DNA of 55,735 bases from an uncultured Bacilli bacterium (lineage in GTDB: Bacteria; Bacillota_I; Bacilli_A; RF39; UBA660): positions 1-55,735 of the forward strand of contig CALVXO010000011.1 in NCBI GenBank assembly GCA_944371325.1, read 5' to 3'. The notes under the pieces are model-generated. The model was not told the origin of the DNA, did no database searches, and saw only the letters and a program-made list of their open reading frames with translations. The translations under genes were made by a program, and so were the position numbers. This document shows positions 26,269 through 55,735 of this stretch, piece by piece. Every line of letters starts with the position of its first letter. Within the stretch, counting starts at the first letter, position 1.

Positions 26269-26303
26269 AAAAGAAATCTTAAATTGCAAGATTTCCTTTT
26301 TTT
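26269..26303. terminator. Bidirectional terminator between convergent cargo genes
   Basis: GAAATCTT (26273-26280) pairs with AAGATTTC (26288-26295), with a T-run on each side when read outward. It ends the unknown 25561 gene and lies within the last codons of the 1001-aa LRR protein. Confidence 0.75.
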
Positions 26304-29284: not shown

Positions 29285-29286
29285 AT

Positions 29287-32200
29287 TTATCTAGTCCCCC
29301 TTTTTAAAACTAACCTTTGTTTAGTTCCCCAATCTCCAGCATATCCTGAGCCATTAAGAGAGTACTCTCCAAATTTAAGTGATTCTTGAACTGGTATTTC
29401 AGGATGATTATTTTGCTCAGTTAAATAACTTAGAATAGTATTTCTATTTGCTCCAATTGATATGTTGGTAATTGGGCTTTCAGGGTTATTTTTATTATAA
29501 GTTTTAACAAATGCCTTACTTCCTCTTAAAAATGCTTTATAAATCTTTAATAAACTCTCGTCATCTCTATAATTAAATGAACTTTCTACATTATTAAATA
29601 CTGCATATCCTTGTGCTTTATTAACATACAATGTAGATTTTGCAATTATTTCTCCAAAGTTATTTCTAATTACTAGATTTTGACAGTTATCTAAAATCAT
29701 ACTAGCTCTCATAATTCCTTGTCCAGCACCATCAACATGGGCACAACAATTACAATATTTACCAAGTATCAAATTATCATAGTCTTGTTTAGGTAACCAA
29801 TGATAAGAGAAATCAGAACTAACTTCTTCTTTTAAATCGTGTTCAGGATTCATATCATATGTTATTTTATTTTCTTTATCAATTTCAACTTTGGTAAAAA
29901 TGTTTCTAGGAGCATTTAAAGATTCATTATATATTCTTAGAGCATTTAGCCATGCTGAATTATTATCATACCATTGTCCGATTAAATCTGCTAATTCTTT
30001 ACAATCTTCGGTAACACCATCAAATTTAACATTAGATAAATAATTTCTACATTTATCCATTGTAACTTTTAATTTTCTTTGTGATCCTTTATTTGAAGTG
30101 CAAGTTTTTGAGATTTGTCTAAAATTCAAGTAAACTCTTTGAATAAATCCAGATTTTCTTCTTTCTTCTTCAACTAATTCTTGATAATTTTCCAAAAAGA
30201 AATTTGCAAACTCTTGGTCAAATTCGTCCCTAGTATAAGGAAAATTGAATATTCTATGAATATCATCACCAATAATTCTATATTCATTTGATTTTCCATT
30301 TGGTAATTTTTCATCAAACATTTTTTCACTGATAAATGTTGATGCTCTTTGTCTAATTATTGCATCTTCTTCTAATGCACCTGTAATTTTCATTAATATT
30401 AATAAATCGCTAAGGTTTTGTACTGCAGATATGTTTGTATTTGTTACTTGACTTGCTTTTAATAACCTTTTTATATTTGCATCATATACTTTAATCATAT
30501 CTTCAATTAGTGGATTTTTTGCGGTTGCAACGAAAGGTTTACTAAATAAGTATTTGTCTTGAATATTATATTTTTTTGCTAGTCTTATAAAATCTTGAAG
30601 TGTATTCTTTTGTAATATTTGATATGTCAAATAATAACTAGATCTCTCATCTTTTTTATTGTCATACAAGAGAGTAATACTATCACTTTCAAATAATCTA
30701 CTATCAACTACAATTCTTTTGAATAGTTCTAAATCGAATTGTATTAATGACTCAAAATCATTTACATCTAAATTTGCCATAAAGAATTTATTATGTAATT
30801 CTGGATCAGTTATATTATATTTTCTTAATAGTTCTACATACTCAACAAATGTTGCAAAATTTTTGCCTTGTAATAAACTTTCTGTATTTTCATCTTTTTT
30901 ATCTAATAAATGACTATTTCTTATAACATTCAAGAAGAAGTTATCATCTTTTCTTAAATTATCAAATAATATAGTTCTATTATCTAAACTCATTGTTGAC
31001 ATCAAAATACCGTTAAATAATTGTTTGATTGCTAAATCGTGTTTTATTAAATCATTCATAAAATCTAGGAATAAAACAGGGTTTTCTCTGATAGATTCTG
31101 ATTTAGAGCATATTTCATCTATTTGGTGTTTTGTAAGTTTAGTTATTTTATCTCCTTGTTCTATATAATATGTGCCATCATCTAAAACATATAATTTGTA
31201 ATCTCCAATATATTCATTATTATGAATTAATTCAACAAATCCTTTTGGTTCTAATCCATTTGAAAATTTTAATTTAGTATTAGGGTTAAAAGCACCTTTA
31301 GCAATTACATTAACTCCTTTTGGTATTATAACTTCTTCTAGTAAAGAACAATCTGAAAAAGCATTGGACATAATATCAAAAGTTTTATCCATAGGTAAAT
31401 GTAGTTTTTTAACTCTTTTAAAGTTTTCTAGTGCATTTGGAAATATTGATACAGGATCTCCGCTAAAAGTAACTTCTTCAAAAGGCATAAATACTTTATG
31501 TTTTGAAAATTCATTGGTATAATATCGTCCACGATCTCTAGTATGAAATCCAGGACAAGAAAATAATGAAATTGCTCGTACATCAAGTTTTTTAAGATTA
31601 TCACATCCATAGAAAGCAGTAGATTCAATATCTTGAGTGCATCCACATATTGTTAATTCTTCTAAATGTTTAGCCCCAGCAAAAGCATATTCTCCAATAG
31701 TATTAATTGGTCTTATAAGCCCACGACCTAATTCATCATATTGAACATTATAATCTTCAAGCGAATAAGATTTGTCTTCTATACCACAGGCATATAAAAC
31801 AATTTTTTGTTGCATATCGTGAATTAAGATTTTATGATCAGGGGTAATAAAGGTTTTATTATATGGAGATACATTTATATTTTGTAATGAATCCATAAAT
31901 GAAAAAGCAGCATCTCCAAAAGATTTTAGATTAGCAGGTATAGTAATTGATGTAATACTATTACATTCTCTAAATGCCTCTTTTTTAATTGTTTCTATAG
32001 TATCTGGCAAATTAACATCAGTAAGATTATTACACTTGTAAAATGCTCTTGACTCAATAGTTCGTACACCAGTTCCTAATCTAACTTTTTTAAGTCTTTT
32101 ACAATTGCTAAATGCTTCAGGAGGAATTGTTCCTAAATTGTATATATCAAATTCTTCAAGATTATCACAACCAGAAAATGCAAAAGCACCCATTGAATAA

Positions 32201-33114
32201 ATTCTTTCTTGATTGCTAATTTCTTTTAAATTTTTACATCCTCTAAAACAAGCGTTAGGAACTTCTGTGCCAATAACATCAATACTAGTAATACCTGTAC
32301 AATTTTCAAAAGCTCTTTCATTAAAATTGGCAACACATGAAGGTATTTCACTTAAACTTTTACAATTTCTAAAACATTTTTTTCCAATTTTAAGTTTTTT
32401 TGATGAATTAATATTTGTTAAATTTATACATCCATCAAACATTCCGTCAGAAAGAGTAGATGTTTGTTCATTTATATTTGCAGATGTAATACTTCTACAA
32501 TTTCTAAAACAATTTTCACCAAAAGATTTAACATGGCTTGGAAATGATGATAATTTAAAGCAATCTTCAAAGACTCTGTTACCAAGTTCTACGATTGTGT
32601 CATTTAGTATAATGTCTAGACTTGAACAGCCTTTAAAACATTCATCAGGTAATTGTTGTATTGTAGATGGAATGTTAACTTTTTTTAATTTTTTACAATT
32701 TAGAAATAGTTGCTTATCTATTTTCTTTAATGATTCAGGTAAAACTACTTCTTCTAAATTATCACATCCAGCAAATATGCCCCAATCTAATTCTTCAACA
32801 CCTTCAGGTATAACAATTCTTTTTAATTTTTTACAATCTCCAAAAGTTCTATAATTTAATCTTTTTAGATTTTTTGGTAAAATAATTTCTTCAAGATTTT
32901 CACATTCGGAAAAAGCACTAGCACCAATAAATTCTAAACTTTCAGGTAGTGTTATTCTTTTTAAATTTTTACATTTAGCAAATGCTCTTTCTCCAATTGA
33001 TTTTATACCATTTGGAATTACAATATCAGTAATATCGTCGCGATTTATAAAAGCATAATTACTAATAGCAGTTTGAATTTTTGCATTAGGAATAATCGGT
33101 TTATTTTCCCCCAT
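29287..33114 (-). CDS. Large BspA-type leucine-rich-repeat protein with CNCC C-terminal domain, 1275 aa
   Basis: The longer paralog. LRR_5/BspA-type repeats run from about residue 10 to 620, with a break near 420-460 (YNKTFITPDHKIL) matched in the shorter protein. A helical region follows, with short islands of similarity (FDNLRKD, EYRIIGDDIHRIF) to the paralog. The C-terminal block has SYHWLPKQDYDNLILGKYCN and CNCCAH at 1121-1126, then ASMILDNCQNLVIRNN and a final LVLKRG. The start at 33114 follows AAGGGGGA; the open frame to 33183 has no ribosome site. It has its own minus-strand promoter. The LRR part would be expected to recognise something and the shared C-terminus to act or signal; that division of labour is inferred. 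Confidence 0.85.
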   Translation of the reverse strand: MGENKPIIPNAKIQTAISNYAFINRDDITDIVIPNGIKSIGERAFAKCKNLKRITLPESLEFIGASAFSECENLEEIILPKNLKRLNYRTFGDCKKLKRIVIPEGVEELDWGIFAGCDNLEEVVLPESLKKIDKQLFLNCKKLKKVNIPSTIQQLPDECFKGCSSLDIILNDTIVELGNRVFEDCFKLSSFPSHVKSFGENCFRNCRSITSANINEQTSTLSDGMFDGCINLTNINSSKKLKIGKKCFRNCKSLSEIPSCVANFNERAFENCTGITSIDVIGTEVPNACFRGCKNLKEISNQERIYSMGAFAFSGCDNLEEFDIYNLGTIPPEAFSNCKRLKKVRLGTGVRTIESRAFYKCNNLTDVNLPDTIETIKKEAFRECNSITSITIPANLKSFGDAAFSFMDSLQNINVSPYNKTFITPDHKILIHDMQQKIVLYACGIEDKSYSLEDYNVQYDELGRGLIRPINTIGEYAFAGAKHLEELTICGCTQDIESTAFYGCDNLKKLDVRAISLFSCPGFHTRDRGRYYTNEFSKHKVFMPFEEVTFSGDPVSIFPNALENFKRVKKLHLPMDKTFDIMSNAFSDCSLLEEVIIPKGVNVIAKGAFNPNTKLKFSNGLEPKGFVELIHNNEYIGDYKLYVLDDGTYYIEQGDKITKLTKHQIDEICSKSESIRENPVLFLDFMNDLIKHDLAIKQLFNGILMSTMSLDNRTILFDNLRKDDNFFLNVIRNSHLLDKKDENTESLLQGKNFATFVEYVELLRKYNITDPELHNKFFMANLDVNDFESLIQFDLELFKRIVVDSRLFESDSITLLYDNKKDERSSYYLTYQILQKNTLQDFIRLAKKYNIQDKYLFSKPFVATAKNPLIEDMIKVYDANIKRLLKASQVTNTNISAVQNLSDLLILMKITGALEEDAIIRQRASTFISEKMFDEKLPNGKSNEYRIIGDDIHRIFNFPYTRDEFDQEFANFFLENYQELVEEERRKSGFIQRVYLNFRQISKTCTSNKGSQRKLKVTMDKCRNYLSNVKFDGVTEDCKELADLIGQWYDNNSAWLNALRIYNESLNAPRNIFTKVEIDKENKITYDMNPEHDLKEEVSSDFSYHWLPKQDYDNLILGKYCNCCAHVDGAGQGIMRASMILDNCQNLVIRNNFGEIIAKSTLYVNKAQGYAVFNNVESSFNYRDDESLLKIYKAFLRGSKAFVKTYNKNNPESPITNISIGANRNTILSYLTEQNNHPEIPVQESLKFGEYSLNGSGYAGDWGTKQRLVLKRGTR
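29675..29807. repeat. Near-identical 133-bp segment shared by the two LRR genes (copy 2)
   Basis: Partner of 26682-26814, in the same orientation and 2993 bases away. Identity includes third codon positions. Confidence 0.8.
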
Positions 33115-33142
33115 AAAAAATCCCCCTTTTTCGTAGTTAGTT

Positions 33143-33170
33143 ATTATATCACTTTTTACGAAAAAATCAA
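33143..33170 (-). promoter_or_regulatory. Promoter of the LRR operon (minus strand)
   Basis: On the minus strand TTGATT (33170-33165) and TATAAT (33148-33143) are 16 bases apart, with TGA before the -10. It lies 29 bases upstream of the start at 33114. Confidence 0.55.
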
Positions 33171-33189
33171 TGAAATCAGACATATTTTC

Positions 33190-38783: not shown

Positions 38784-39233
38784 TTAACTAATGTTTTTAT
38801 TTTCTTTTTTTCCACATAACCAATCAATAGAAATATTATAATGTTTTGCAAATTCAATTAAGGCATAAGTATGGATATATAATTTCCCTAGTTCGTATTT
38901 AGAATAATTAGACTGATCTACCTTTATTATTTCTGCTATCTTTTCTTGAGATGTATTATTTTTAGTTCTTATTTCTTTTAAATGATTACCTAAAATCACT
39001 TTATCAATTTTATCGTTTATAATTTCATATTTTTTAGTGTTTGTTAGTCCACAAATATAATCAAGATTAACACCATAATAATTACAAAATTCGTTTAGAT
39101 AAGGAAGAATAATAGCATCAATACCATTTTCCCAACCAGCATAAGTAGATCTACTAACACCTAGCATATCAGCAAGTTCTTGTTGTGTGTTTCCAAAATA
39201 CGTTCTTATATCTTTCATTCTTTCATAAATCAT
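38784..39233 (-). CDS. Transcriptional regulator with two XRE-type HTH domains, 149 aa
   Basis: Two Cro/C1-type HTH domains in tandem: the first TQQELADMLGVSRSTYAGWENG (about 15-36) and the second SQEKIAEIIKVDQSNYSKYELG (about 93-114). Each is followed by an NYYGVNLDYICGL / HYNISIDWLCGK type segment, so this is an internal duplication. The start at 39233 follows AGAGGTG; the longer frame to 39263 is not needed. It diverges from a membrane-protein gene and sits between the cargo and the transfer genes, the usual place for an element's repressor. Confidence 0.82.
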   Translation of the reverse strand: MIYERMKDIRTYFGNTQQELADMLGVSRSTYAGWENGIDAIILPYLNEFCNYYGVNLDYICGLTNTKKYEIINDKIDKVILGNHLKEIRTKNNTSQEKIAEIIKVDQSNYSKYELGKLYIHTYALIEFAKHYNISIDWLCGKKENKNIS

Positions 39234-39341
39234 TCCACGACACCTCTTATATAATTTTCCCATTTAAAATTGCTTTATTTAAAAAGTGTCGGAATATTAC
39301 CTAAAAACGTGTTATAATAGTAAAGGTAAGGAGAGGTAAGA

Positions 39342-41344: not shown

Positions 41345-41456
41345 AAACACTTGCAAAATTTCTTTTTTTAAGTGATAAATATTATAAGATTAATTCTATA
41401 TAATTCATATAAAAAATGCGATATAAGAGCATTAAGAATGGGAGTTGAATAGTTAT

Positions 41457-42074
41457 ATGTCATTTAAAAGAAGAGTGCTTAAAATAACATTTTTAACTTT
41501 AATAGTAATATTGTTAATAATATTAAGTATAGTTATAATCAATAAGTATTTCTTTGCTAAAGAGATAGATACTTCTAAATCTTCTAAAACAAATGTTAAT
41601 GATGTTTCTGATAATTCAAAAGAAACTATCAAAAAGGAAGAAAAGGAAAAAACAGAAAATAAAGAAAAACAAGAAGAAAAAGCAGAACAAAAAGATGTAA
41701 ATGTCCAAGATAATAAAGTAGAAAATACTCCCAAGGTTAATATCATACCTAAAGGCGAAACGGATAATAAAAAGACAGAGGACCAAACACCTAGTTCAAA
41801 TAATCATAATAGTTCTTCAGTAACTCCACCAATTTCACAACAACCAGTAGAACAAACACCTAGTTGTACTCCAAAAAAGTTTTATACAGTGTTTAGAGCA
41901 GATTTTGAAAGTGAAGAAAAATGCAATGAAGTATATGAATATTATCATGATATTGATCCGAATAAATATTTAGGGCATATTTGCTCGGAACAAGTTGATG
42001 ACTGTGGAGATACTTATTATATGCTTACATTTTTTGATATTAATGAAAATTATTTTGGATATGATGAGATTTAG
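41457..42074 (+). CDS. Membrane-anchored extracellular protein with Cys-containing C-terminal domain, 205 aa
   Basis: One N-terminal membrane helix (about 8-30), then a Lys/Glu- and Thr/Pro/Ser-rich linker (about 35-135) and a compact C-terminal domain (about 138-205) starting SCTPKKFYTVFRADFESEEKC with four Cys (likely two disulfides). The topology puts the domain outside. Family not recognised; similar stalked proteins accompany transfer operons. The ATG at 41457 is preferred; a TTG at 41445 directly abuts the GGGAG site. Confidence 0.65.
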   Translation: MSFKRRVLKITFLTLIVILLIILSIVIINKYFFAKEIDTSKSSKTNVNDVSDNSKETIKKEEKEKTENKEKQEEKAEQKDVNVQDNKVENTPKVNIIPKGETDNKKTEDQTPSSNNHNSSSVTPPISQQPVEQTPSCTPKKFYTVFRADFESEEKCNEVYEYYHDIDPNKYLGHICSEQVDDCGDTYYMLTFFDINENYFGYDEI

Positions 42075-42118: not shown

Positions 42119-44614
42119 ATGAAAAAAATAATGAAGAAAGTATTTAATGGAATACTTTTATTATTAGTTGGTGTTTCGGCATTTCCAACAGTCAATGTAA
42201 GTGCAGCCAACTATAATGATACTATTAATGATAAATATATATGGATTGAAGGAGATTATGTTGTAAAAGAAAAGGGTAGTGTACGAAAATATCAGAGAAT
42301 GACTTATATGATTAGAAATTCTGATGGACAGTTCGTTTACTGCGTGGAGCCAGGTACTCCAGTAGATTCTAATGTTGTTTATCCTGGTCAAGATTACAAT
42401 CAAGCCTATGTTGCTAATATGACAGAAGAACAATGGAGAAGAATTGAACTTCTTGCATACTATGGTTATGGGTATGGAAATCATACCGACATTCATTGGT
42501 ACACAGTAACACAGTTTTTGATTTGGCAGACTGTTCCTCATGGTTACGACATTTTCTTTACAGATAAATTAAATGGAAACCATATTACCAAATATACAAA
42601 TGAAATAAACGAGCTAAATAGATTAGTGGCAGAGCATACTAGAGTACCTAGTTTTTCTAACACTACTCAAGAAATGAATATTGGAGATACTGCAACATTT
42701 ACTGATACTCGTGGAGTATTAAGCCAATTTGAAGTATCATCAACAGATAAGGCAACTGCAAAAATTGAAGGAAATGTATTAAAAGTAACTGCAAACGAAG
42801 TGGGAAATACAAGATTAACTCTTACTAAAAGAGATAAAAATTACTCACACCCTGCAATTATATACGTTCATCCAACTAGTCAAGATATTATGATGCGTGG
42901 CGCTTACGATCCATTAAGTGTAAATCTTGATTTAGAAATTACTGGTGGTAAAGTATCTGTTAAAAAGATTGATGCTGATACAAAATTAGGTATTGGTCAA
43001 GGAGATGCAACATTAGATGGAGCAGTATATGGAATCTATACAACTACTGGAGAAAGAGTAGGAGAAGTTATTTCAAAAGGTGGAGAATACGTAATGAGTG
43101 ATTATTTACCATCTTTAGGTACCTTTTATTTAAAAGAAGAAAAATCATCAACTGGGTACGAACTTAACGAAACTAAGTATTATTTTAATATTACGAAAGA
43201 AGATTTGTACCCAGAAGTTGATGTTACAGAAAAAGTAATCGAAAGGGATTTAAAAGTCTTTAAGGTTTATGCAAGTGATGAAACGGGATTTTTAACTGGA
43301 GAGCCAAATGTTACATTTGACATTTACTTGAAATCATCTGGTGAAAAAGTAACAAGCATTACAACAGATAGTAAAGGCTATGCAACAGCCACATTATCTT
43401 ACGGAACTTATGTTGTAAAGCAAGTAACAACAACAGAAGATCATGAAATGGTTGAAGATTTTGAAATCACTGTAAATGAAAGTTCTGAAGATCCAATATA
43501 TAAATTACTTGCTAATGCAGAAATTGAGGCAAGATTAAAAGTGATTAAAATAGATTCAGAAACAAAAAATGTAATTCCAGCATCAGGTATTAAGTTTAAG
43601 ATTTTTGATGTTGAAAAAAATGAATATGTTTGTCAAGTAACTGATAAAAAACAATGCGTTTTTGAAACTGATGAAAATGGTATTTTACTTACACCGTTAC
43701 CATTAGAAAGTGGTACATATAGATTAGAAGAACAAGACCAAACATTAAATGGTTATTTATGGAATACCAAGCCTTTAGAATTTACAATCGGAGAGGATTC
43801 AGAACTAATTAATGATGATGTATTTGGTGCTATTGTTGAAGTAGAATTTGAAAATACACAAGTAAAAGGTCAAATTGTTATAGAAAAAACAGGAGAAGAA
43901 TTAGTTATCAAAGATAATTCTTATCAATATGAAAAAATTAAATTAGAAGGAGTAGAGTTTGAACTTCGCGCTAATGAAGATATTGTTGTTGGTGGTAAAA
44001 CCTACTATAATAAAGGCGAATTAGTTACGACTTTAGTAACAGATAAAGATGGATATGCTAGTATTGGTAATCTACCACTTGGTAAATATATTCTAAAAGA
44101 AGTAAAATCTAGTAATGGTAATGTAGTTGATTCAAAAACTTATGAATTTGAATTAAAGTATGATGACCAATATACTGAAGTTGTTTATAAAACTTTTAAT
44201 ATTCATAATGAGTATCCAAAAGGAGAGCTTGAATTTACAAAAACTGATTTATCTTCTGGAGAGGCATTACCAAACACATTAATTGAAATTTATACTGATA
44301 AAGATGAATTAATATTTAGTGGAAGAACAGATGAAAACGGAAAAATTATTATTAAAAATTTACCAGTTGGAAAATTTTATATTTTGGAAAAAGATGCACC
44401 AGAGGGATATATTTTAAACGAGGAGAAAATGTGGTTTTCTATCACTGAAAATGGCGAAATAGTTAAAGCAAATATGACTAATGAAAAAATTGTAGAAGTA
44501 CCAAATACTCTACAAGAAAAAGACATACTTATTGAAATTATTTCAGCAACACTTGTATTAGCAGGAATAGGAATTATTGTTTATGCTAAAAAGAAAAGTA
44601 AAAATAGAAAATAA
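42119..44614 (+). CDS. Sortase-anchored thioester-domain adhesin with Cna-B/SpaA repeats, 831 aa
   Basis: A signal peptide (about 1-29) precedes a thioester domain (about 40-155): Cys75 in FVYCVEPG and Gln132 in TQFLIW match the Cys-Gln pair and TQxAIW motif of bacterial thioester adhesins, which bond covalently to host or partner surfaces. An Ig-like region (about 170-250) and five or so Cna-B/SpaA domains follow, each with typical Lys/Asn/Glu isopeptide positions (e.g. VKKIDADT, LKVIKIDSETK, IVIEKTG, LEFTKTDLSSGE). The C-terminus has a VPNTLQ sorting motif, a membrane helix and a basic tail. The adjacent sortase presumably anchors it. Carried on the element, it may help mating contact or colonisation. 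Confidence 0.9.
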   Translation: MKKIMKKVFNGILLLLVGVSAFPTVNVSAANYNDTINDKYIWIEGDYVVKEKGSVRKYQRMTYMIRNSDGQFVYCVEPGTPVDSNVVYPGQDYNQAYVANMTEEQWRRIELLAYYGYGYGNHTDIHWYTVTQFLIWQTVPHGYDIFFTDKLNGNHITKYTNEINELNRLVAEHTRVPSFSNTTQEMNIGDTATFTDTRGVLSQFEVSSTDKATAKIEGNVLKVTANEVGNTRLTLTKRDKNYSHPAIIYVHPTSQDIMMRGAYDPLSVNLDLEITGGKVSVKKIDADTKLGIGQGDATLDGAVYGIYTTTGERVGEVISKGGEYVMSDYLPSLGTFYLKEEKSSTGYELNETKYYFNITKEDLYPEVDVTEKVIERDLKVFKVYASDETGFLTGEPNVTFDIYLKSSGEKVTSITTDSKGYATATLSYGTYVVKQVTTTEDHEMVEDFEITVNESSEDPIYKLLANAEIEARLKVIKIDSETKNVIPASGIKFKIFDVEKNEYVCQVTDKKQCVFETDENGILLTPLPLESGTYRLEEQDQTLNGYLWNTKPLEFTIGEDSELINDDVFGAIVEVEFENTQVKGQIVIEKTGEELVIKDNSYQYEKIKLEGVEFELRANEDIVVGGKTYYNKGELVTTLVTDKDGYASIGNLPLGKYILKEVKSSNGNVVDSKTYEFELKYDDQYTEVVYKTFNIHNEYPKGELEFTKTDLSSGEALPNTLIEIYTDKDELIFSGRTDENGKIIIKNLPVGKFYILEKDAPEGYILNEEKMWFSITENGEIVKANMTNEKIVEVPNTLQEKDILIEIISATLVLAGIGIIVYAKKKSKNRK

Positions 44615-45218
44615 AAGTAAGCACTTGTTAATTATAATGAGTGCTTTTCTTTTTTTTATTGCTATTTCGTTACTTGCTTTTAAGTATTATGGTTTATATG
44701 AAAAAGATAAGCAAGAACAAAATAGTATTGAGTTATTTTTTGAAGAAATACCTACTGAAAAAGAAGAATCAGAGCCTAATTTAGAGAAAGTTGAAGAAAA
44801 AGAAAACATAATACAATATGTAGCTGTTTTAGAAATACCTAAAATTAATTTGAAAAAAGGACTTGTTGACAAGAATAGTAAAGCCAATAACGTAGATAGA
44901 AATATTTACACATTAAAAGAATCAACATTTCCAGATGAGGAAGAAGAGAGTCATGTAATACTAGCATCACATTCTGGTAGTGGTTATTATTCATACTTTA
45001 ATAAGTTAAATAAATTAAATAAAAGTGATCAAGTCTTTTTATATTATCAAGGTATTAAATACATATATCAAATTGTAAACATATATGAAGCAGAAAAAAC
45101 TGGGACAGTTTCTTTAAGACAAACATCTGGCTCTGATATTACTTTAATAACTTGTATTAGTGGTACAGATAAACAAATTGTTTATGTAGGAAGTTTAGAA
45201 GCAAAGGAGAATTATTAA
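44583..45218 (+). CDS. Sortase, probably dedicated to the upstream adhesin, 211 aa
   Basis: An N-terminal membrane anchor (about 15-37) and linker lead to a sortase domain: IPKINLKKGLV, catalytic His130 in LASHSG and catalytic Cys191 in LITC. The Arg that normally completes the triad just before the last strand is not obvious; the aligned stretch reads TDKQIVYVG, so Lys197 or Gln198 stands in its place. The gene starts 32 bases inside the adhesin gene, indicating coupling. It probably recognises the VPNTLQ-type motif of that adhesin. Class uncertain (B- or D-like). Confidence 0.82.
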   Translation: MLKRKVKIENKSKHLLIIMSAFLFFIAISLLAFKYYGLYEKDKQEQNSIELFFEEIPTEKEESEPNLEKVEEKENIIQYVAVLEIPKINLKKGLVDKNSKANNVDRNIYTLKESTFPDEEEESHVILASHSGSGYYSYFNKLNKLNKSDQVFLYYQGIKYIYQIVNIYEAEKTGTVSLRQTSGSDITLITCISGTDKQIVYVGSLEAKENY

Positions 45219-45445
45219 TGGAGTTTGAAAACAATGGAATGGGTAAATGTATTTTGTTGAAAGAAGATAAATACGATCATTCACTTATTTACTCAATTAC
45301 TGGTAAACAATTTATTGTAGCATCTGATTTAGATAAAAAAACTGGTAGTTGGTTACATGGTCATTATTTTGGTAAAGATTTAGATAGTGCATTAGATTTT
45401 TTTAACGAACTATCAAATGAACATGATAATGATATGGAAAGGTAG
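45218..45445 (+). CDS. Small hypothetical protein of the transfer operon, 75 aa
   Basis: Coupled to the sortase stop (TAATG). Contains a GKQFIVASDLDKKTGSWLHG stretch and acidic ends; looks cytoplasmic. Proteins of this size and pattern occur in transfer operons of Firmicutes elements, but no function is known to me. Confidence 0.65.
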   Translation: MEFENNGMGKCILLKEDKYDHSLIYSITGKQFIVASDLDKKTGSWLHGHYFGKDLDSALDFFNELSNEHDNDMER

Positions 45446-45822
45446 TGGTAAATTTGGAAAAAGTAGCAGGATACCTATGCTTTAAAAATCAAAGCAAGGA
45501 ATCTATGAATCTTAATTTAAAGCAAATGTCAGAATGGTGTTTGCTTAAAAATTATGACTGTACAATTTATTTTGATAAAGTAAAAAATAGGTTAGATTTA
45601 GATAGAAATGAATTGAACAAATTAAAACATGATATTCAAAATGGAAAGTACAAAAAATTAATTATAAAAGATATGACTAATGTTTCAAGAAATACTACAT
45701 TTAATATTGAATTTTTGCAGTTTTTAGATGATAACGACTGCAAAGTCGAAAGTATGGATGGCATTGATTTAGATTTATTTAAAAATATATTTAATAAAAA
45801 TAAGGAGGAGAAAGAAAGATGA
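45445..45822 (+). CDS. Resolvase-like protein lacking the catalytic serine, 125 aa
   Basis: The chain follows the N-terminal fold of serine recombinases: an opening strand, L..Q...W, a YFD strand, a LDRNELNKLKHDIQNGKYKKLIIKDMTNVSRNTTF stretch matching the RPxLxxLLxDIxxGxxDxLVVxxLDRLSR consensus, then an FLQFLDDNDCKVES strand. However, the position of the catalytic Ser (RVS in active enzymes) reads CFKNQ, and the first conserved Arg of DRLSR is Thr-Asn. No DNA-binding domain follows. It is therefore probably a non-catalytic protein with a structural or regulatory role. Start GTG at 45445 overlaps the upstream stop; TTG at 45454 is possible. Confidence 0.6.
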   Translation: MVNLEKVAGYLCFKNQSKESMNLNLKQMSEWCLLKNYDCTIYFDKVKNRLDLDRNELNKLKHDIQNGKYKKLIIKDMTNVSRNTTFNIEFLQFLDDNDCKVESMDGIDLDLFKNIFNKNKEEKER

Positions 45823-46226
45823 ATAACGAAAATGTAAAAGAAGTAAAAAACTCAAAAAATAGATTTGAATTAGATGGTAATGTTGCTAATATTAGTAATG
45901 TTTATACTAATCAAAACGGGAAGAAAATATTAAGGTTTGATTTGGCTCAAAACAACAATGGTAATACGCAATATGTTCCTATTGTTTTAAGAGGAGAACT
46001 AGTTAATAGTTATGGTAATGAAATTCAAAAGGGAGACTGGATTTCAGTAAAAGGTAGAATCTCTACATATCAAAAAGATGTTGAAAGAGATGGAAAAACA
46101 TATAAAGATAAAGCCATAGATATTTTAGGGTTTGAAATTACTGATAGAAAAAATAATAAAGTTTATACTTCTGATGGCGATATTAGAGATTTAGAAGAAA
46201 AATCTAATTCGGAAATGAAAAGATAA
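45819..46226 (+). CDS. ssb: Single-stranded DNA-binding protein (OB-fold), element-encoded
   Basis: 135 aa with an SSB/OB fold: FELDGNVANISNVYTNQNGKKILRFDLAQNNN, YVPIVLRGELV, GDWISVKGRISTYQKDVERDGKTYKDKAIDILGFEI. This is the PriB/SSB-like arrangement common in conjugative elements, where it protects the single strand during transfer or rolling-circle replication. The acidic helicase-binding tip of housekeeping SSBs is absent; the C-terminus ends EMKR. Overlaps the upstream gene by four bases. Confidence 0.82.
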   Translation: MNNENVKEVKNSKNRFELDGNVANISNVYTNQNGKKILRFDLAQNNNGNTQYVPIVLRGELVNSYGNEIQKGDWISVKGRISTYQKDVERDGKTYKDKAIDILGFEITDRKNNKVYTSDGDIRDLEEKSNSEMKR

Positions 46227-47760: not shown

Positions 47761-49149
47761 ATGATGACTAAAGTTTTTGATTTGTTAAGAAGTTTAGGCT
47801 GGTATTTAGTTAGTTTTATATATGACTTAATTGATGGACTTCTACAAATAATTAAAGAATTAAATGCTTTTGATATAATTAATTCATTATCAAATAATCA
47901 AACATTTAGGAATTTATATACTGGAGCAATGGCTATTGCTGTAACATTATTTGCACTTTTTATCGTGTGGAGATTTGTAAATAAACTACTAGATCCAGAT
48001 GAAGAAACAACTTTTAAAATGATAATAATGGAAGCAGTAAAATGTGGAACGCTTATTATGATGTCCACATTTTTATTTGTTCAAGTATCTAATTTTTCTA
48101 TTACTCTATCGAACTATACAGGAAATATTTTTGAAACAAATAGTAATTCAAAGATGAGTGATTCAATGCTTACTATGTTTATTTCATATAGAGATGGTTA
48201 TAAAAATAGTGATAAGTTTAATGAAAGTAAGAGTATATCGGAATTAGTGAATAACGGTTCGTTTGATAGTGATGAGTTATATTTATCAAAATATGTAACA
48301 AAATCGAGAGTAATATTGTCTGATGAAAAAGATTATAAATATGAAATTAATTGGATTATGGCAGTAATAAGTGGAGGCTTTTTCTTATATAGTTTATTTT
48401 TTGCAGGTATTATGTTAGGCAGAAGACAAATTGAATTTTTATTTTTGTTTTCAATAGCACCAATTGTTTTTGCAACTAGTGTTTGTAATAAACAACGAAG
48501 GGGAGCAGTAATAGAACAACTGGTTTCTTTAGCACTTCAAAGTGCAGTTGTTATGCTAATTGTTAGTTTAACTGTAATGGTAATGCAAGAAATTAATGTT
48601 ACAAAATTCTTTGATAATACATTTATGAATATAACGACAAAATCACTGCTTTATTTAGGTTGTGCAACATTTATTATGACTGGTAGTCAAGTTATCAATA
48701 GATTTATAGGAAGTAATGTAAGTGCAGCGAGTGGTAGAGAACAATTAATGTCATTAATGGGTTATGGAAAAATAGCAGGTATTGGAGCAACACTTGGTGC
48801 TGGTGCAACTTTAGGAGGAGCTCTTTTAGGAACTGGTCTTGCAATGAAAGGTGGAAAAGCAGTAGGCTCTCACGCATTATCTCAAGCAGGAATTGCTTTA
48901 GGAACAATGGGAACAGTTGATCCAGCAAGTGGACAAACTCCGAATAGAATGCAAAGATTTGCTAGTGCTATGGGATCAAGAATGTATGCAACAGGTCAAA
49001 GAATGGGAGGAAAATCAACTGGTAATAAGTTTAGTGCAAGTGATGCATTTATGAATGCAGGAGCAAGTAGTTTGCATAACACGGTAAGAAGAGTAATGCC
49101 ACGAGCTAGTTATAATACTTCTTATTATAGAAGAAGAAATATGATATAA
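47761..49149 (+). CDS. VirB6/TrbL-like conjugation membrane protein, 462 aa
   Basis: Six or more membrane helices spread over residues 15-330, including a long hydrophobic stretch FFLYSLFFAGIMLG and SLALQSAVVMLIVSLTVMVM, then a Gly/Ala/Ser-rich region (about 330-440) and a basic tail. This is the layout of TrbL/VirB6 channel proteins (CD1107-like) in Firmicutes type IV secretion systems. The gene lies between the pilin-like and PrgI-like genes, as expected. Confidence 0.85.
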   Translation: MMTKVFDLLRSLGWYLVSFIYDLIDGLLQIIKELNAFDIINSLSNNQTFRNLYTGAMAIAVTLFALFIVWRFVNKLLDPDEETTFKMIIMEAVKCGTLIMMSTFLFVQVSNFSITLSNYTGNIFETNSNSKMSDSMLTMFISYRDGYKNSDKFNESKSISELVNNGSFDSDELYLSKYVTKSRVILSDEKDYKYEINWIMAVISGGFFLYSLFFAGIMLGRRQIEFLFLFSIAPIVFATSVCNKQRRGAVIEQLVSLALQSAVVMLIVSLTVMVMQEINVTKFFDNTFMNITTKSLLYLGCATFIMTGSQVINRFIGSNVSAASGREQLMSLMGYGKIAGIGATLGAGATLGGALLGTGLAMKGGKAVGSHALSQAGIALGTMGTVDPASGQTPNRMQRFASAMGSRMYATGQRMGGKSTGNKFSASDAFMNAGASSLHNTVRRVMPRASYNTSYYRRRNMI

Positions 49150-49162
49150 GGAGGCAATATAT

Positions 49163-49465
49163 ATGTATATAACAGTAAAGTCAATTAAGAGAAATTTAGG
49201 TTTTAAAGGAATAGAAGTATCTGACATTATAATTGCTTTACCAATATTAATCTTATTTATAATTTTATTTTGTTTTACACCATTAAAAATACCATCAATA
49301 GTAGGTCTAATGATTGGTATTTTTTGTTTATTACCAGTTAATGTAAGTAAGAAAAATAGAATGTATAAAGTAATTGGATTAATGTTTAAATACTTATTTA
49401 AAAACAAATATTATGTATATCAAAAGAAAGGAGCAGTGAATAATCTTGAAGAATCAGAAAACTAA
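49163..49465 (+). CDS. PrgI/VirB3-like conjugation membrane protein, 100 aa
   Basis: Two adjacent hydrophobic helices (about 22-40 and 45-60) after a short N-terminus, and a basic segment ending YYVYQKKG. This is the usual PrgI/VirB3 plan and always stands just before VirB4; here the VirB4 gene starts 20 bases inside it. Start set by AAGGAGG. Confidence 0.82.
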   Translation: MYITVKSIKRNLGFKGIEVSDIIIALPILILFIILFCFTPLKIPSIVGLMIGIFCLLPVNVSKKNRMYKVIGLMFKYLFKNKYYVYQKKGAVNNLEESEN

Positions 49466-51953
49466 AGATGAAAAAAAGAAAAAGAAAGAACATAAAGTTA
49501 TAGAAAAGTTTGTTAAGAAGAAAGATAATTCAAAACAAAAATACATAACTAAAAGTGTTTTAAAAAGAAAGTTTAAAAATGCTCAAAGTTTTACCAATGC
49601 AGAAGTAGTAAATGATAATGGAATTATAAAACTTCGTGATAATAGTTTTGCAAGAGTTTTTTCGGTTGATGCTATTGATTTATCACTAACATCAAACACT
49701 CAAAAGCAAAACTTTTTTAATCAATTAAAATTTCTTTATCAATTAAAAGGATTAAATTTAAGAATATACAAGTTAGATGATAAGATAGATCTAAATGCTA
49801 ATAAAGATTACTACAATAGACTAATGGAAGAATTTGCTAATGATGAAGAAAAACTAACATTTTTAAAAGAAAGATATGATAGATTAGAAATATTAGAAGA
49901 ACAAAATCTTACTACTACAAGTAGATATTATTTTGTATTAATTAGTGATAATGATAAAGCATTAGAACATACATCAGAAGAACTAGAAATGCATTGTTAT
50001 AACATGACACCTAGATTACATATTCAAATGATTACAAATAAACTAGAGATATATCAGTTTTTGATAAACTTATATTTATCGAATGCTAATATAGAACAAT
50101 TAATGTGGAGCGATTTAGTAGAACTAATCACTCCTTTTTTTATTAATGAAACAGTAGGTTATATAAAATCAGATGATACAGAAATACAAGTTGTAACAAT
50201 TAAAAGATTACCACCATTTATAGATGAGTTATTTTTTGAAGAACTATTTAATGTTCCAGATACAAGATGTTGTATTCATATTAAAGATACAATACCAACT
50301 GAAGAACTGGTTAGAAGATTAGATAGTAATTATGAATTTTTAGTTTCCGAAAGAAGCACTACTAGAAAATTATCAGATGCTACTCAAATGGATACTGAAA
50401 GAGAGAACTTTCAAGCATTAATGACACAAATTAAAAATGGCGATGAAAAAATCAAAGAAGTTGATTTCATTATTGTAATAAGTGGTAATAGAAAACAACG
50501 TGAAGAAAAGTTAAAAGAGTTAAGAAAAATTGCTGATGTATTTCAAATTAAATTGGATGTTCCTAGAATGAGGCAAATGGAAGGTTGGCAAGCATTTGAT
50601 ATAACTAAAAATGGTTTTGAAGATTATCATAACTATCTTCCAAGTTTAACTTTGTCAGCATCATTTCCACTTACGATTACACACTTTAATGATGAAACAG
50701 GCTATATTTTAGGATCTGATATTCATACAGCTTTACCAACAATATTTGATTTATTTCATAAAGATGCAACACGACCATCAAGTAATTTAGCAATCATTGC
50801 CTCAACTGGTGGTGGAAAAAGTTTTACATTAAAGAAAATGATTATAAATGAAATTAATCGTGGGAACTCTTGCTTTTTGTTTGATGCAGAGGGCGAGTAT
50901 GAAAAGTTAGTTAGAAAAAACAAAGGCGAATATATTGATATGTATTCTTCTAGTGGTGGTATTATTAATCCACTACAAGTAAGATTTCTTCCTAGTGATA
51001 AAGAAGAAAAAGAAGATGGAGATATAAATTCAATTAATTATGAAGATTGTCCTCTTGCTAAACATCTAGGCTCACTAGAAACATTTATTAAATGTGCTTT
51101 TGAAGAAATAAAAGAAAGCGAAGTAGTAGTTATGCTAGATATGATTGAAAAGCTATATAAAAGATTTGGTATAACTAAAAATACAAAAATATCTAGGTTA
51201 GAAAAATTAGAAAATACTGATTATCCAATATTTTCTGACTTGATAGAATTTCTACCAGATTATCGTAATATGATTACTAACCCAGAACAGTTAAAAATAG
51301 TTGATAAGTTAGAGATATTATTAGATAGATTTAAAGTTGGAACTGATGCAATGTTATTTAATGGTTATACATCAGTAAATCTTGATGCTAACTTAATTGC
51401 ATTTAATGTAAAGGACTTGTTATATAGTAAAAATAAAAGAATTATAACTACTCAATTAGTAAATTTACTTACTTATCTAAATAATATTATCGTAAGAAAT
51501 AAGATAGTAAATGATAAAGAAAAAGATAAAAAGAGAATTAAAAATATTTCAGTAGTAGTAGATGAGTTTCACTTATATTTAAAGAATACTGATAGTGAGG
51601 TATTACTCACATTTGAACAAATTGCAAGAAGAATCAGAAAATATCATGGTGCATTTATTCCTGCAACTCAAAGTATTCATGACTTTTTAGGGGATGATGA
51701 TTCAGTTAGGAGTGCAACAGCTATCTTTAATAATTGTCAGTATCAATTAGTTGGAATGTTAAAAGAAGATGACTTAACAACTTATTTAAAATTATTCTAT
51801 CAAAACCCATTAACTGATACACAAAAAGAATTTTTAATGCAAGCAGAGATGGGAGAGTTTTTGCTTACAATTAATTCAAAGAATAGAATAAGAGTTAAAA
51901 TTGTTGCTACACCACTTGAAGTTGAACTGATGGGAGAAGAAGTTAAAGTATGA
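49446..51953 (+). CDS. VirB4-family conjugation ATPase (TraE/TrsE-like), 835 aa
   Basis: The motor ATPase of the type IV secretion system. A basic N-terminal tail precedes the N-domain. The ATPase domain has Walker A ASTGGGKS (about 452-459) and Walker B VVVDEFH (about 700-706), plus FLPATQSIHDFLG-like and GMLKEDDLTTYL motifs of VirB4. The length suits the family. Start TTG at 49446, with the GGAG site about 14 bases upstream, inside the PrgI-like gene. It drives substrate movement at the inner side of the channel. A VirD4 coupling protein is not in view. Confidence 0.93.
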   Translation: MKNQKTKDEKKKKKEHKVIEKFVKKKDNSKQKYITKSVLKRKFKNAQSFTNAEVVNDNGIIKLRDNSFARVFSVDAIDLSLTSNTQKQNFFNQLKFLYQLKGLNLRIYKLDDKIDLNANKDYYNRLMEEFANDEEKLTFLKERYDRLEILEEQNLTTTSRYYFVLISDNDKALEHTSEELEMHCYNMTPRLHIQMITNKLEIYQFLINLYLSNANIEQLMWSDLVELITPFFINETVGYIKSDDTEIQVVTIKRLPPFIDELFFEELFNVPDTRCCIHIKDTIPTEELVRRLDSNYEFLVSERSTTRKLSDATQMDTERENFQALMTQIKNGDEKIKEVDFIIVISGNRKQREEKLKELRKIADVFQIKLDVPRMRQMEGWQAFDITKNGFEDYHNYLPSLTLSASFPLTITHFNDETGYILGSDIHTALPTIFDLFHKDATRPSSNLAIIASTGGGKSFTLKKMIINEINRGNSCFLFDAEGEYEKLVRKNKGEYIDMYSSSGGIINPLQVRFLPSDKEEKEDGDINSINYEDCPLAKHLGSLETFIKCAFEEIKESEVVVMLDMIEKLYKRFGITKNTKISRLEKLENTDYPIFSDLIEFLPDYRNMITNPEQLKIVDKLEILLDRFKVGTDAMLFNGYTSVNLDANLIAFNVKDLLYSKNKRIITTQLVNLLTYLNNIIVRNKIVNDKEKDKKRIKNISVVVDEFHLYLKNTDSEVLLTFEQIARRIRKYHGAFIPATQSIHDFLGDDDSVRSATAIFNNCQYQLVGMLKEDDLTTYLKLFYQNPLTDTQKEFLMQAEMGEFLLTINSKNRIRVKIVATPLEVELMGEEVKV

Positions 51954-52132
51954 AACGATTAAGTGGTCGGCAGTTAAGAAAAGAGTTTAAGAAAATATAT
52001 TTTGATGAATTTGATGATCCAAATGAATCATTTATGGATTTCTTGTTAGACTTAATTCCAAAGAAAATATTAATAGAAATTATTTCAAAAGGGGAACATT
52101 ATTATTCCTCTATTTTTAGTAAATATAAATAA
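51950..52132 (+). CDS. Small hypothetical protein of the transfer operon, 60 aa
   Basis: ATGA overlap with virB4 and one-base overlap with the next gene, so it is a real coupled gene. A basic N-terminus (KRLSGRQLRKEFKK) and an acidic stretch (DEFDDPNESFMDFL) with an amphipathic helix; no signal peptide. Function unknown. Confidence 0.65.
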   Translation: MKRLSGRQLRKEFKKIYFDEFDDPNESFMDFLLDLIPKKILIEIISKGEHYYSSIFSKYK

Positions 52133-53058
52133 TGAATAAAAAGAAAAAGAAAAATATTATTTTAAAAATTATTGGTGGTAGTACCATTTTATCAGTCGCT
52201 TTTGCAATGGTAATTTTAATTTGTGTGCTAATGATTTTTGATTTTTTTGGAACAAAACTTACAAAAGAAAAAGTCCAGCATAACGAAGAATATGCAGATT
52301 CTTATAAGACTGCACTTAATACATATCTAAAAGATGGATACGTTCCACTACAAAGACTATTATATTTTTATTTGGAAGATTCAACATTGACGCTAGATAT
52401 TCTATATACAATGAATCAAAATAAAGAGGCAAAAACTGCTAGAGAAATAGAAAGTGTTTGTGAAGATCAAAGAGTAAAAAATATGACTGCTTGCACTAAT
52501 GTTAATATAGAAGAAAATAAAGATTATCTTGTAGTAAGTACAGGACATTTCAATTTTCCGTTAAAAAGTGAGTTTACTGTAACAAGTTTCTTTAATGAAC
52601 AAAGAACAGTTTATGGCGAAAGTAATACTCACAATGGTTGGGATTTAGCAGTTCCAGCCCAAACACCAGTCTATTCAGTTTGTGATGGAGTAGTTGAAAA
52701 AGTAAACTTTACTCAAGATTCTAATCTTCCTTATGACCAAAGTGGTAATAGTGTTGGTAATACTATTACATTAAAATGTGATAGTGATTATGATGAAACT
52801 TATTATGTAATATTCGCTCATCTTTATCCTAATAGTGCGAAAGTGAAAGAAGGAGATGCAGTAAGTCATTGGACACAAGTTGCATCAGCAGGAACTACTG
52901 GATATTCAACTGGTAATCATTTACATTATCAAATAGAAAATGAAAATAGAGAATTAGTTGATGGAATGCAGTTAATTGATTTTACATTAAGTAGTTCATC
53001 AGACTTTAATGACTTTAAAAATCCTAATACTGGTTTTAGACCACCACTTGGAAATTAA
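52132..53058 (+). CDS. Membrane-anchored M23 peptidase (VirB1-like wall hydrolase), 308 aa
   Basis: A basic start and one membrane helix (about 10-36), a helical linker, then an M23/LytM domain: THNGWDLAVP (zinc His and Asp, about 163-172), GNTITLKC, VIFAHLYPN and NHLHYQIEN (HxH, about 262-270). M23 enzymes cut peptide cross-bridges; in type IV secretion systems of Gram-positives such proteins open the wall for the channel. It is the last gene of the secretion core; the palindrome-rich region follows. Confidence 0.88.
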   Translation: MNKKKKKNIILKIIGGSTILSVAFAMVILICVLMIFDFFGTKLTKEKVQHNEEYADSYKTALNTYLKDGYVPLQRLLYFYLEDSTLTLDILYTMNQNKEAKTAREIESVCEDQRVKNMTACTNVNIEENKDYLVVSTGHFNFPLKSEFTVTSFFNEQRTVYGESNTHNGWDLAVPAQTPVYSVCDGVVEKVNFTQDSNLPYDQSGNSVGNTITLKCDSDYDETYYVIFAHLYPNSAKVKEGDAVSHWTQVASAGTTGYSTGNHLHYQIENENRELVDGMQLIDFTLSSSSDFNDFKNPNTGFRPPLGN

Positions 53059-55696: not shown

Positions 55697-55735
55697 CCTA
55701 TGGTATAATATTATCAGACAGATAAATAGTAATTT

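Follow-up and report, generated by a model that had tools for sequence, protein, structure and literature searches.

A glutamine-type sortase and a class II thioester adhesin as a predicted surface-anchoring module on a probable conjugative element of an uncultured Bacilli bacterium

Introduction

Can a sortase that has glutamine in place of its catalytic arginine still anchor a protein to the cell wall, and what does such an enzyme do beside a thioester adhesin on a conjugative element? The question is raised by a 55,735-nucleotide stretch of an uncultured Bacilli bacterium (contig CALVXO010000011.1 of assembly GCA_944371325.1; this whole stretch is called the window below), in which the gene for an adhesin with a thioester domain (TED) overlaps the gene for a sortase with glutamine, Gln200, at the arginine position. 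Sortases are described as having a ubiquitous Cys-His-Arg triad; the role of its arginine is disputed between oxyanion stabilisation and substrate positioning, and further work on that role has been called for (PMC9520033). The adhesin itself is of a known kind, since pLS20 and enterococcal plasmids provide earlier examples of TED adhesins carried by conjugative elements. From comparisons of sequences and structure models we propose, with a probability of roughly 0.58, that the pair would form the surface-anchoring module of a conjugative element, the sortase being an active transpeptidase that uses Gln200 and a lysine, Lys174, on adhesins with Val-Pro-x-Thr (VPxT) sorting signals.

A sortase lineage with glutamine at the arginine position

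We number the sortase residues from the TTG codon at 44577. An earlier note on this DNA had read a His and a Cys in the sortase and Lys-Gln at the usual Arg position, and these were identified as His132, Cys193 and Lys199-Gln200, with Gln200 aligned to the Arg of the sortase 4d70. The protein matches the sortase domain PF04203 (54.7 bits against a cut-off of 26.6) and TIGR01076 (44.9 against 39.35). All 50 matches listed for its structure model (predicted local distance difference test, pLDDT, 85.0) are sortases, with Z scores of 14.2-16.3 (VIA-align), and the fold is about as close to class A as to classes C, D, E and F. The window sortase reached no NCBIfam class cut-off (class C 63.4 of 160, SrtD 51.3 of 140, D 36.9 of 165, E 32.5 of 160, GN 13.1 of 158.25). 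The class F model did not match the window sortase, and no class A or B model was among the NCBIfam matches listed for it, which is not proof of absence. A special affinity to class B or D, with whose structures the earlier note had proposed an alignment, is not supported. Class C and D sortases (e.g. 3re9 and 4d70) share the fold and give the best family-model matches; the window enzyme differs from them in having Gln for Arg, Lys for a loop Pro and scores far below the class cut-offs.

A scan of genome_contigs (84,980 species) yielded 273 confirmed stretches, the best 80 of which are called the named loci here. Gln200 and Lys174 are present in 80/80 of them and the sortase Cys in 79/80. The remaining locus (L048, 8001-8651) has this Cys changed to Arg and adjoins an adhesin truncated to 517 amino acids (aa), and is on both counts likely a decaying copy. 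Relatives are present in 81/117 genomes of the window's bacterial family, and all 31 distinct loci from the family and own-genome searches, window included, have Gln. We assembled 241 rows from the window, the family search (130, one being the own-genome copy), the named loci (80) and a class-wide Pfam search (30); the row counts include duplicates (for example, L144 and L163 are one locus, and named loci may repeat family genomes) and are thus not independent. Position 200 is Gln in 196 rows, Arg in 39 and His, Tyr or Asn in 6. The class-wide loci outside the window's family have Arg in 24/24 cases and those inside it have Gln in 2 and Arg in 4 of 6; six further outside-family loci from a phylum-wide search all have Arg. 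No Gln-type sortase was found outside the family in a phylum sample of 392 genomes, in which classes assigned to other phyla may be unsampled. Recent GTDB releases place the Clostridia in another phylum.

On a tree of 131 rows from which the two columns of interest were excluded, the distribution of Gln needs 5 changes, compared with 36.8 for shuffled labels. A single origin of Gln200 with a few later changes is likely on this tree, though not proved because 61 of the 128 forks are open. Since Gln200 is invariant in 67/67 aligned relatives, the Lys-Gln is not a chance substitution; the structure alignment (A3) omitted 14 of the 80 named loci, comprising near-duplicates, truncated open reading frames (ORFs), the Cys-less L048 and three with clipped ORFs. 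Between the window sortase and that of L037, the nonsynonymous rate (dN) is 0.20 and the synonymous rate (dS) 0.93, a ratio of ~0.22 that is rough with dS near saturation and that indicates purifying selection. Residue conservation and dN/dS together rule out an origin by chance or as a pseudogene, and the Gln-sortase lineage is real as a sequence pattern.

A viral origin was rejected, with 0 of 19 IMG/VR candidate stretches confirmed and only six records in a phage collection, at 28.8-31.0% identity over 53-55% of the query. We found no close plasmid-borne sortases: the 30 records are below 60% identity, none covers 80% of the query, and those listed are mostly annotated as class C. Searches of the open-access PMC library for sortases that lack the Arg or have Gln in its place, and for VPxT signals, yielded no report of this lineage.

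The window's own genome encodes a second Gln-sortase (L003, on contig C16) beside an adhesin ending in EVPNTG, as well as one Arg-type sortase at C13:40881 that is class B-like by eye. The L003 pair follows a chromosomal thrS-like gene and precedes a phage replisome organiser, a DNA methylase and an ArdC-like gene, and from these flanks it appears to lie on a different element. Short sortases of ~160-190 aa, mostly with Gln, also occur in the window's bacterial family (L115-L124 and similar) and may be housekeeping enzymes outside conjugative elements.

The named loci come from metagenome-assembled genomes with labels such as uncultured Bacilli, Clostridia and Tenericutes, among them Candidatus Scybalousia, Faecimonas and Pelethosoma. 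Judged by their names, many derive from gut samples, and we place these genomes in GTDB order RF39. According to prediction, most species of RF39 keep a meso-diaminopimelate peptidoglycan wall (PMC10868615), which makes a wall for anchoring plausible.

A lysine that accompanies the glutamine

The earlier note had considered that the Arg might lie elsewhere on the same loop. We found none conserved lineage-wide on the beta7/beta8 loop, and the only near-universal base is Lys174 on the beta6/beta7 loop, the sole basic residue in >95% of the Gln-sortases. Lys199 was ruled out as a displaced Arg, being conserved in only 117 of the 196. Lys174 occurs in 195/196 Gln rows, 6/6 rows with His, Tyr or Asn and 2/39 Arg rows (L126 and L133), and Gly176 in 191/196 Gln rows. 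The Arg rows have Pro at position 174 in 25 of 39 cases, as do, by eye, the sortases 4d70, 24rr, 2kw8, 4d7w and 6ixz of the PDB. The Arg sortase L183, which is nested among the Gln-type enzymes, has Glu (multiple alignment) or Asn (pairwise alignment) at position 174 and no Lys either way; it adjoins a coupling-protein-like gene and not an adhesin (by eye). A search of 193 family genomes with L183 revealed no further Arg reversions, its 30 loci being L183 itself, 28 with Gln and 1 whose alignment stops short of the position. Across these alignments, Gln200 and Lys174 look like a linked switch. The Thr192 position is Thr or Ser in all 196 Gln-sortases.

Sorting signals and neighbouring adhesins

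We scanned large plus-strand ORFs for sorting signals with P3 fixed as Pro, Ala or Ser and P1 as Thr, so that only P4, P2 and P1′ were free. A signal-like tail was present in 77/80 named loci, L057, L095 and L097 having none. The 73 distinct signals have Val at P4 in 69 cases and Pro at P3 in 71. P2 is Asn in 47, Asp in 13, Ser in 8, Ile in 4 and Gln in 1, and P1′ is variable (Gly 36, Leu 13, Glu 9, Asp 7, Phe 3, Ser 2, Ala 2, Val 1). In the same scan, the neighbours of some Arg-type sortases carry LPxTG or IPSTG. A TED homologue lies nearby in 67/80 named loci and a SpaA homologue in 76/80. The loss of Arg is not accounted for by the VPxT motif on its own, since VPDTG of pneumococcal RrgC is reported to be handled by Cys-His-Arg SrtC enzymes (PMC5640630).

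A class II thioester domain with a revised predicted bond pair

The thioester domain and Cna-B repeats that the earlier note had assigned to the adhesin were both recovered by Pfam, as PF08341 at residues 73-154 (30.2 bits against a cut-off of 22) and as five SpaA (Cna-B) stretches of PF17802 (186.4 bits, above cut-off). The C-terminus has VPNTL followed by a hydrophobic stretch and a basic tail. The TED model matches 6fx6 (SaTIE-TED) with Z 18.7 and a root-mean-square deviation of 3.8 over 229 aligned residues at ~20% identity (VIA), exceeding its match to the class I domain 5a0g (Z 13.1 over 147 residues), and we therefore assign it to class II. A beta-sandwich insertion (strands 191-249 in the model) precedes the predicted bond-forming Gln. 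In fold, Cys and Gln positions and inserted beta-sandwich the domain is like SaTIE-TED; it differs in its low identity and in being carried by a conjugative element in a lineage that is uncultured.

In a profile alignment with 6fx6 (E 9.3e-30), Cys75 falls at chain position 47 and Gln255 at 218. These positions are Cys296 and Gln467, the reported bond pair of 6fx6, by an offset of 249 worked out by hand for the construct Gln254-Gly502 and its chain of 253 residues, with the four extra residues assumed to be N-terminal. The bond-forming Gln of class I and II TEDs is described as having its own weak motif, whereas the Gln and Trp of the TQXX-hydrophobic-W motif are helix 2 residues next to the bond that its formation does not require (PMC6194298). 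Gln132 belongs to the latter motif, and this role together with the alignment of Gln255 rules it out as the thioester partner. Of the Cys75/Gln132 pair proposed earlier, Cys75 thus stands and Gln132 gives way to Gln255, so that a Cys75-Gln255 thioester bond is predicted. The [YFL]C and TQXX-hydrophobic-W motifs are present as VYCVEP and TQFLIW. Gln255 lies in SQDIM, where the preceding Ser is not hydrophobic, unlike the weak hydrophobic-Q-hydrophilic-hydrophobic-hydrophobic motif. Trp136 is invariant, like the TED residues in Table 1, in 34/34 aligned N-terminal regions, the alignment consisting of the window and 33 of 67 TED loci.

The probable conjugative element

The earlier note had treated the adhesin as encoded by an integrative and conjugative element. 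A conjugative element with a dedicated sortase next to the adhesin agrees with the genes that follow the sortase, which include a VirB4-like ATPase (Table 1), and with the recurrence of the left part of the element beside different flanks. The regions upstream of L037 and L039 differ from that of the window and from each other, and L052 and L041 share the part from adhesin to M23 peptidase yet have other flanks; in the four compared loci the element side is common and the upstream side is not. The M23 peptidase probably serves the transfer system as the hydrolase that opens the wall. Up to the end of the contig at 55735 we recognised neither a coupling protein nor a relaxase. All 9 genomes searched, the window's own among them, gave coupling-protein matches; a coupling protein lies downstream of the module in L291 and L293, with a relaxase as well in L293.

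Compared with L037, dS falls from 0.85 in the p028-like gene to 0.13 in virB4 (window 47761-51953), which would place a recombination breakpoint near 49.1-49.5 kb and make the element a mosaic. The membrane protein directly upstream of the adhesin (41445-42074) could be a chaperone or an exclusion factor. Upstream of the element, two BspA-type leucine-rich-repeat proteins of 1001 and 1298 aa are encoded side by side on the minus strand (26279-33183).

Table 1. Features of the adhesin-sortase pair and of the surrounding element in the window.
Feature	Coordinates	Strand	Remarks
Helix-turn-helix repressor (XRE-like by sight)	38784..39263	-	Leftmost element gene in relatives; 82% identical to L039, 81% to L037
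Membrane protein	41445..42074	+	Variable, charged, low-complexity middle; directly upstream of adhesin; tblastn match in 13/80 named loci
Adhesin ORF	42119..44614	+	831 aa; TIE-type: signal, class II TED, 5 SpaA domains, VPNTL sorting signal
Class II TED, residues 32-277	42212..42949	+	AlphaFold model, mean pLDDT 87.3
Cys75, predicted thioester Cys	42341..42343	+	34/34 invariant; aligned to 6fx6 thioester Cys; codon checked
Gln132, Gln of TQXX-hydrophobic-W motif	42512..42514	+	TQFLIW; 34/34 invariant
Gln255, predicted thioester-forming Gln	42881..42883	+	34/34 invariant; aligned to 6fx6 bond-forming Gln; codon checked
VPNTL sorting motif	44498..44512	+	Fits VPxT consensus of 73 distinct signals
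Gln-type sortase	44583..45218 (first ATG)	+	Listed ORF starts at TTG 44577, two codons earlier; overlaps end of adhesin gene
His132	44970..44972	+	Invariant in 67/67 aligned relatives
Lys174, start of beta6/beta7 loop	45096..45098	+	67/67 aligned relatives; 195/196 Gln-sortases
Cys193	45153..45155	+	Invariant in 67/67 aligned relatives
Gln200, at catalytic Arg position	45174..45176	+	67/67 aligned relatives; 196/241 rows
Resolvase, N-terminal domain only	45445..45822	+	125 aa; PF00239; no DNA-binding part; beside sortase in 13/80 named loci
Single-stranded DNA-binding (SSB)-like protein	45819..46226	+	PF00436
Conjugation membrane protein, pLS20_p028/Mbov_0396-like	47761..49149	+	NCBIfam 77.2 bits, cut-off 150
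VirB4-like conjugation ATPase	49446..51953	+	NF045975 462 bits, cut-off 590; P-loop_TraG above cut-off
M23 peptidase	52132..53058	+	PF01551

Discussion

We propose the following route for the adhesin. Once exported, it would stall at the membrane by its C-terminal VPNTL signal, and the adjacent sortase would cleave after Thr by means of Cys193 and His132 and join the adhesin to a wall precursor. Gln200 may keep neutral hydrogen-bond contacts with the substrate backbone, Thr192 and backbone amides would form the oxyanion hole, and Lys174, in the place of the loop Pro, may provide the positive charge that was lost with Arg. With its predicted Cys75-Gln255 thioester, the distal TED could then form a covalent bond to an amine of a partner cell, the likeliest target being the mating recipient.

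Published work on other sortases leaves room for such an enzyme. The structures of S. pyogenes SrtA place the Arg on the P4/P3 carbonyls and not on P1, crediting the oxyanion to the Thr beside Cys, and activity is retained in an evolved S. aureus SrtA that has Ser in place of the Arg (PMC9520033). This evolved enzyme, which is selective for LMVGG, resembles the Gln-sortases as a transpeptidase without Arg; it is a laboratory product with a changed substrate, whereas they are a natural lineage with predicted activity. In S. agalactiae SrtA a carbonyl of the beta6/beta7 loop is reported to hold the Arg in place (PMC3166054), and the loop that carries Lys174 is therefore a neighbour of the Arg. 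A Gln on the same carbonyls combined with a Lys from this loop is chemically reasonable. Citrulline at Arg197 of S. aureus SrtA is reportedly tolerated, for which our literature search gave no confirmation.

The closest precedent for the adhesin is TIEpLS20 of pLS20, a class II TED adhesin within a conjugation gene cluster that is needed for efficient pLS20 conjugation (PMC8092201). By analogy, this precedent favours a role in mating over host binding.

Several points weigh against the proposed module. The pLS20 precedent covers the adhesin only, because TIEpLS20 is described as having no sorting signal, pLS20 as having no sortase and the anchoring as sortase-independent (PMC8092201), in contrast to the dedicated sortase and VPxT signal of the window. 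Loss of the Arg can be fatal, as S. pyogenes SrtA R216A is inactive (PMC9520033). The coupling of Gln and Lys offers only two independent contrasts, with which the sign test (median p 0.5) cannot reach significance, and the Arg rows L126 and L133 also hold Lys at aligned position 174. Lastly, a VirB4 homologue was found in only 24/80 named loci within the stretch examined; the named loci without one may be other elements or cut contigs.

Among the alternatives, the one that survives best, although we consider it unlikely, is that the adhesin is cargo for attachment to host or gut surfaces. The TEDs of pathogens bind host proteins, as SfbI does fibrinogen (PMC8092201, PMC4450167), and the TED is more diverged between the window and L037 than the SpaA region (70% against 82% identity). 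Against this, the module sits between the repressor and the transfer genes and recurs with them, and TED-like adhesins are common on plasmids, being present on 52 records of which 17 are predicted to be conjugative.

A somewhat smaller chance goes to Gln200 and Lys174 being a re-tuning of specificity for Val-Pro-Asn/Asp-Thr, the Arg never having been chemically needed and Lys174 pairing with substrate P2 or with the enzyme and not with the catalytic centre. The signals lean this way, with Val at P4 in 69/73 and Asn or Asp at P2 in 60/73, and it has been argued that the Arg binds mainly substrate (PMC9520033). Val at P4 does not itself demand the loss of Arg, however, given RrgC with its VPDTG and Arg-bearing SrtC (PMC5640630), and Lys174 is kept in 6/6 rows in which position 200 is His, Tyr or Asn.

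We regard it as improbable that the sortase is a pilus polymerase joining adhesin copies into a fibre: class C is the closest NCBIfam model (63.4 against 160), but each locus has a single large adhesin, the window locus contains no further pilin gene and no class C lid motif was seen by eye. Slightly more improbable still is an enzyme whose transpeptidation is slow or absent and whose role is that of a hydrolase, chaperone or regulator, with the adhesin held by a membrane anchor or by another sortase. The abolished activity of R216A (PMC9520033) and the Arg-type class B-like sortase of the same genome speak for it. Against it, about two hundred rows conserve His, Cys and Thr192, the window gene is under purifying selection, most named Gln-sortases adjoin an adhesin (67/80 with a TED homologue), and L048, alone among the named loci in having lost the Cys, adjoins a truncated adhesin.

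Beyond the surface-anchoring module, we put forward tentatively, at slightly less than even odds, that the Gln-sortases make up a separate sortase class, in which Gln has taken the place of Arg and the cation has moved across the substrate groove to Lys174 on the facing wall. This class would read Val-Pro-x-Thr with a variable P1′, would be the predominant sortase of the family and would be packaged with TED adhesins into a self-contained module for covalent mating on conjugative elements.

As a natural lineage of ~200 aligned members that lack the Arg and share one near-universal Lys, the Gln-sortases offer a direct test of the disputed role of this Arg, and they could yield transpeptidases for VPxT tags. 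Ecologically, the pair shows conjugative elements that bring along an adhesin and, next to it, the enzyme predicted to anchor it, a combination that differs from pLS20.

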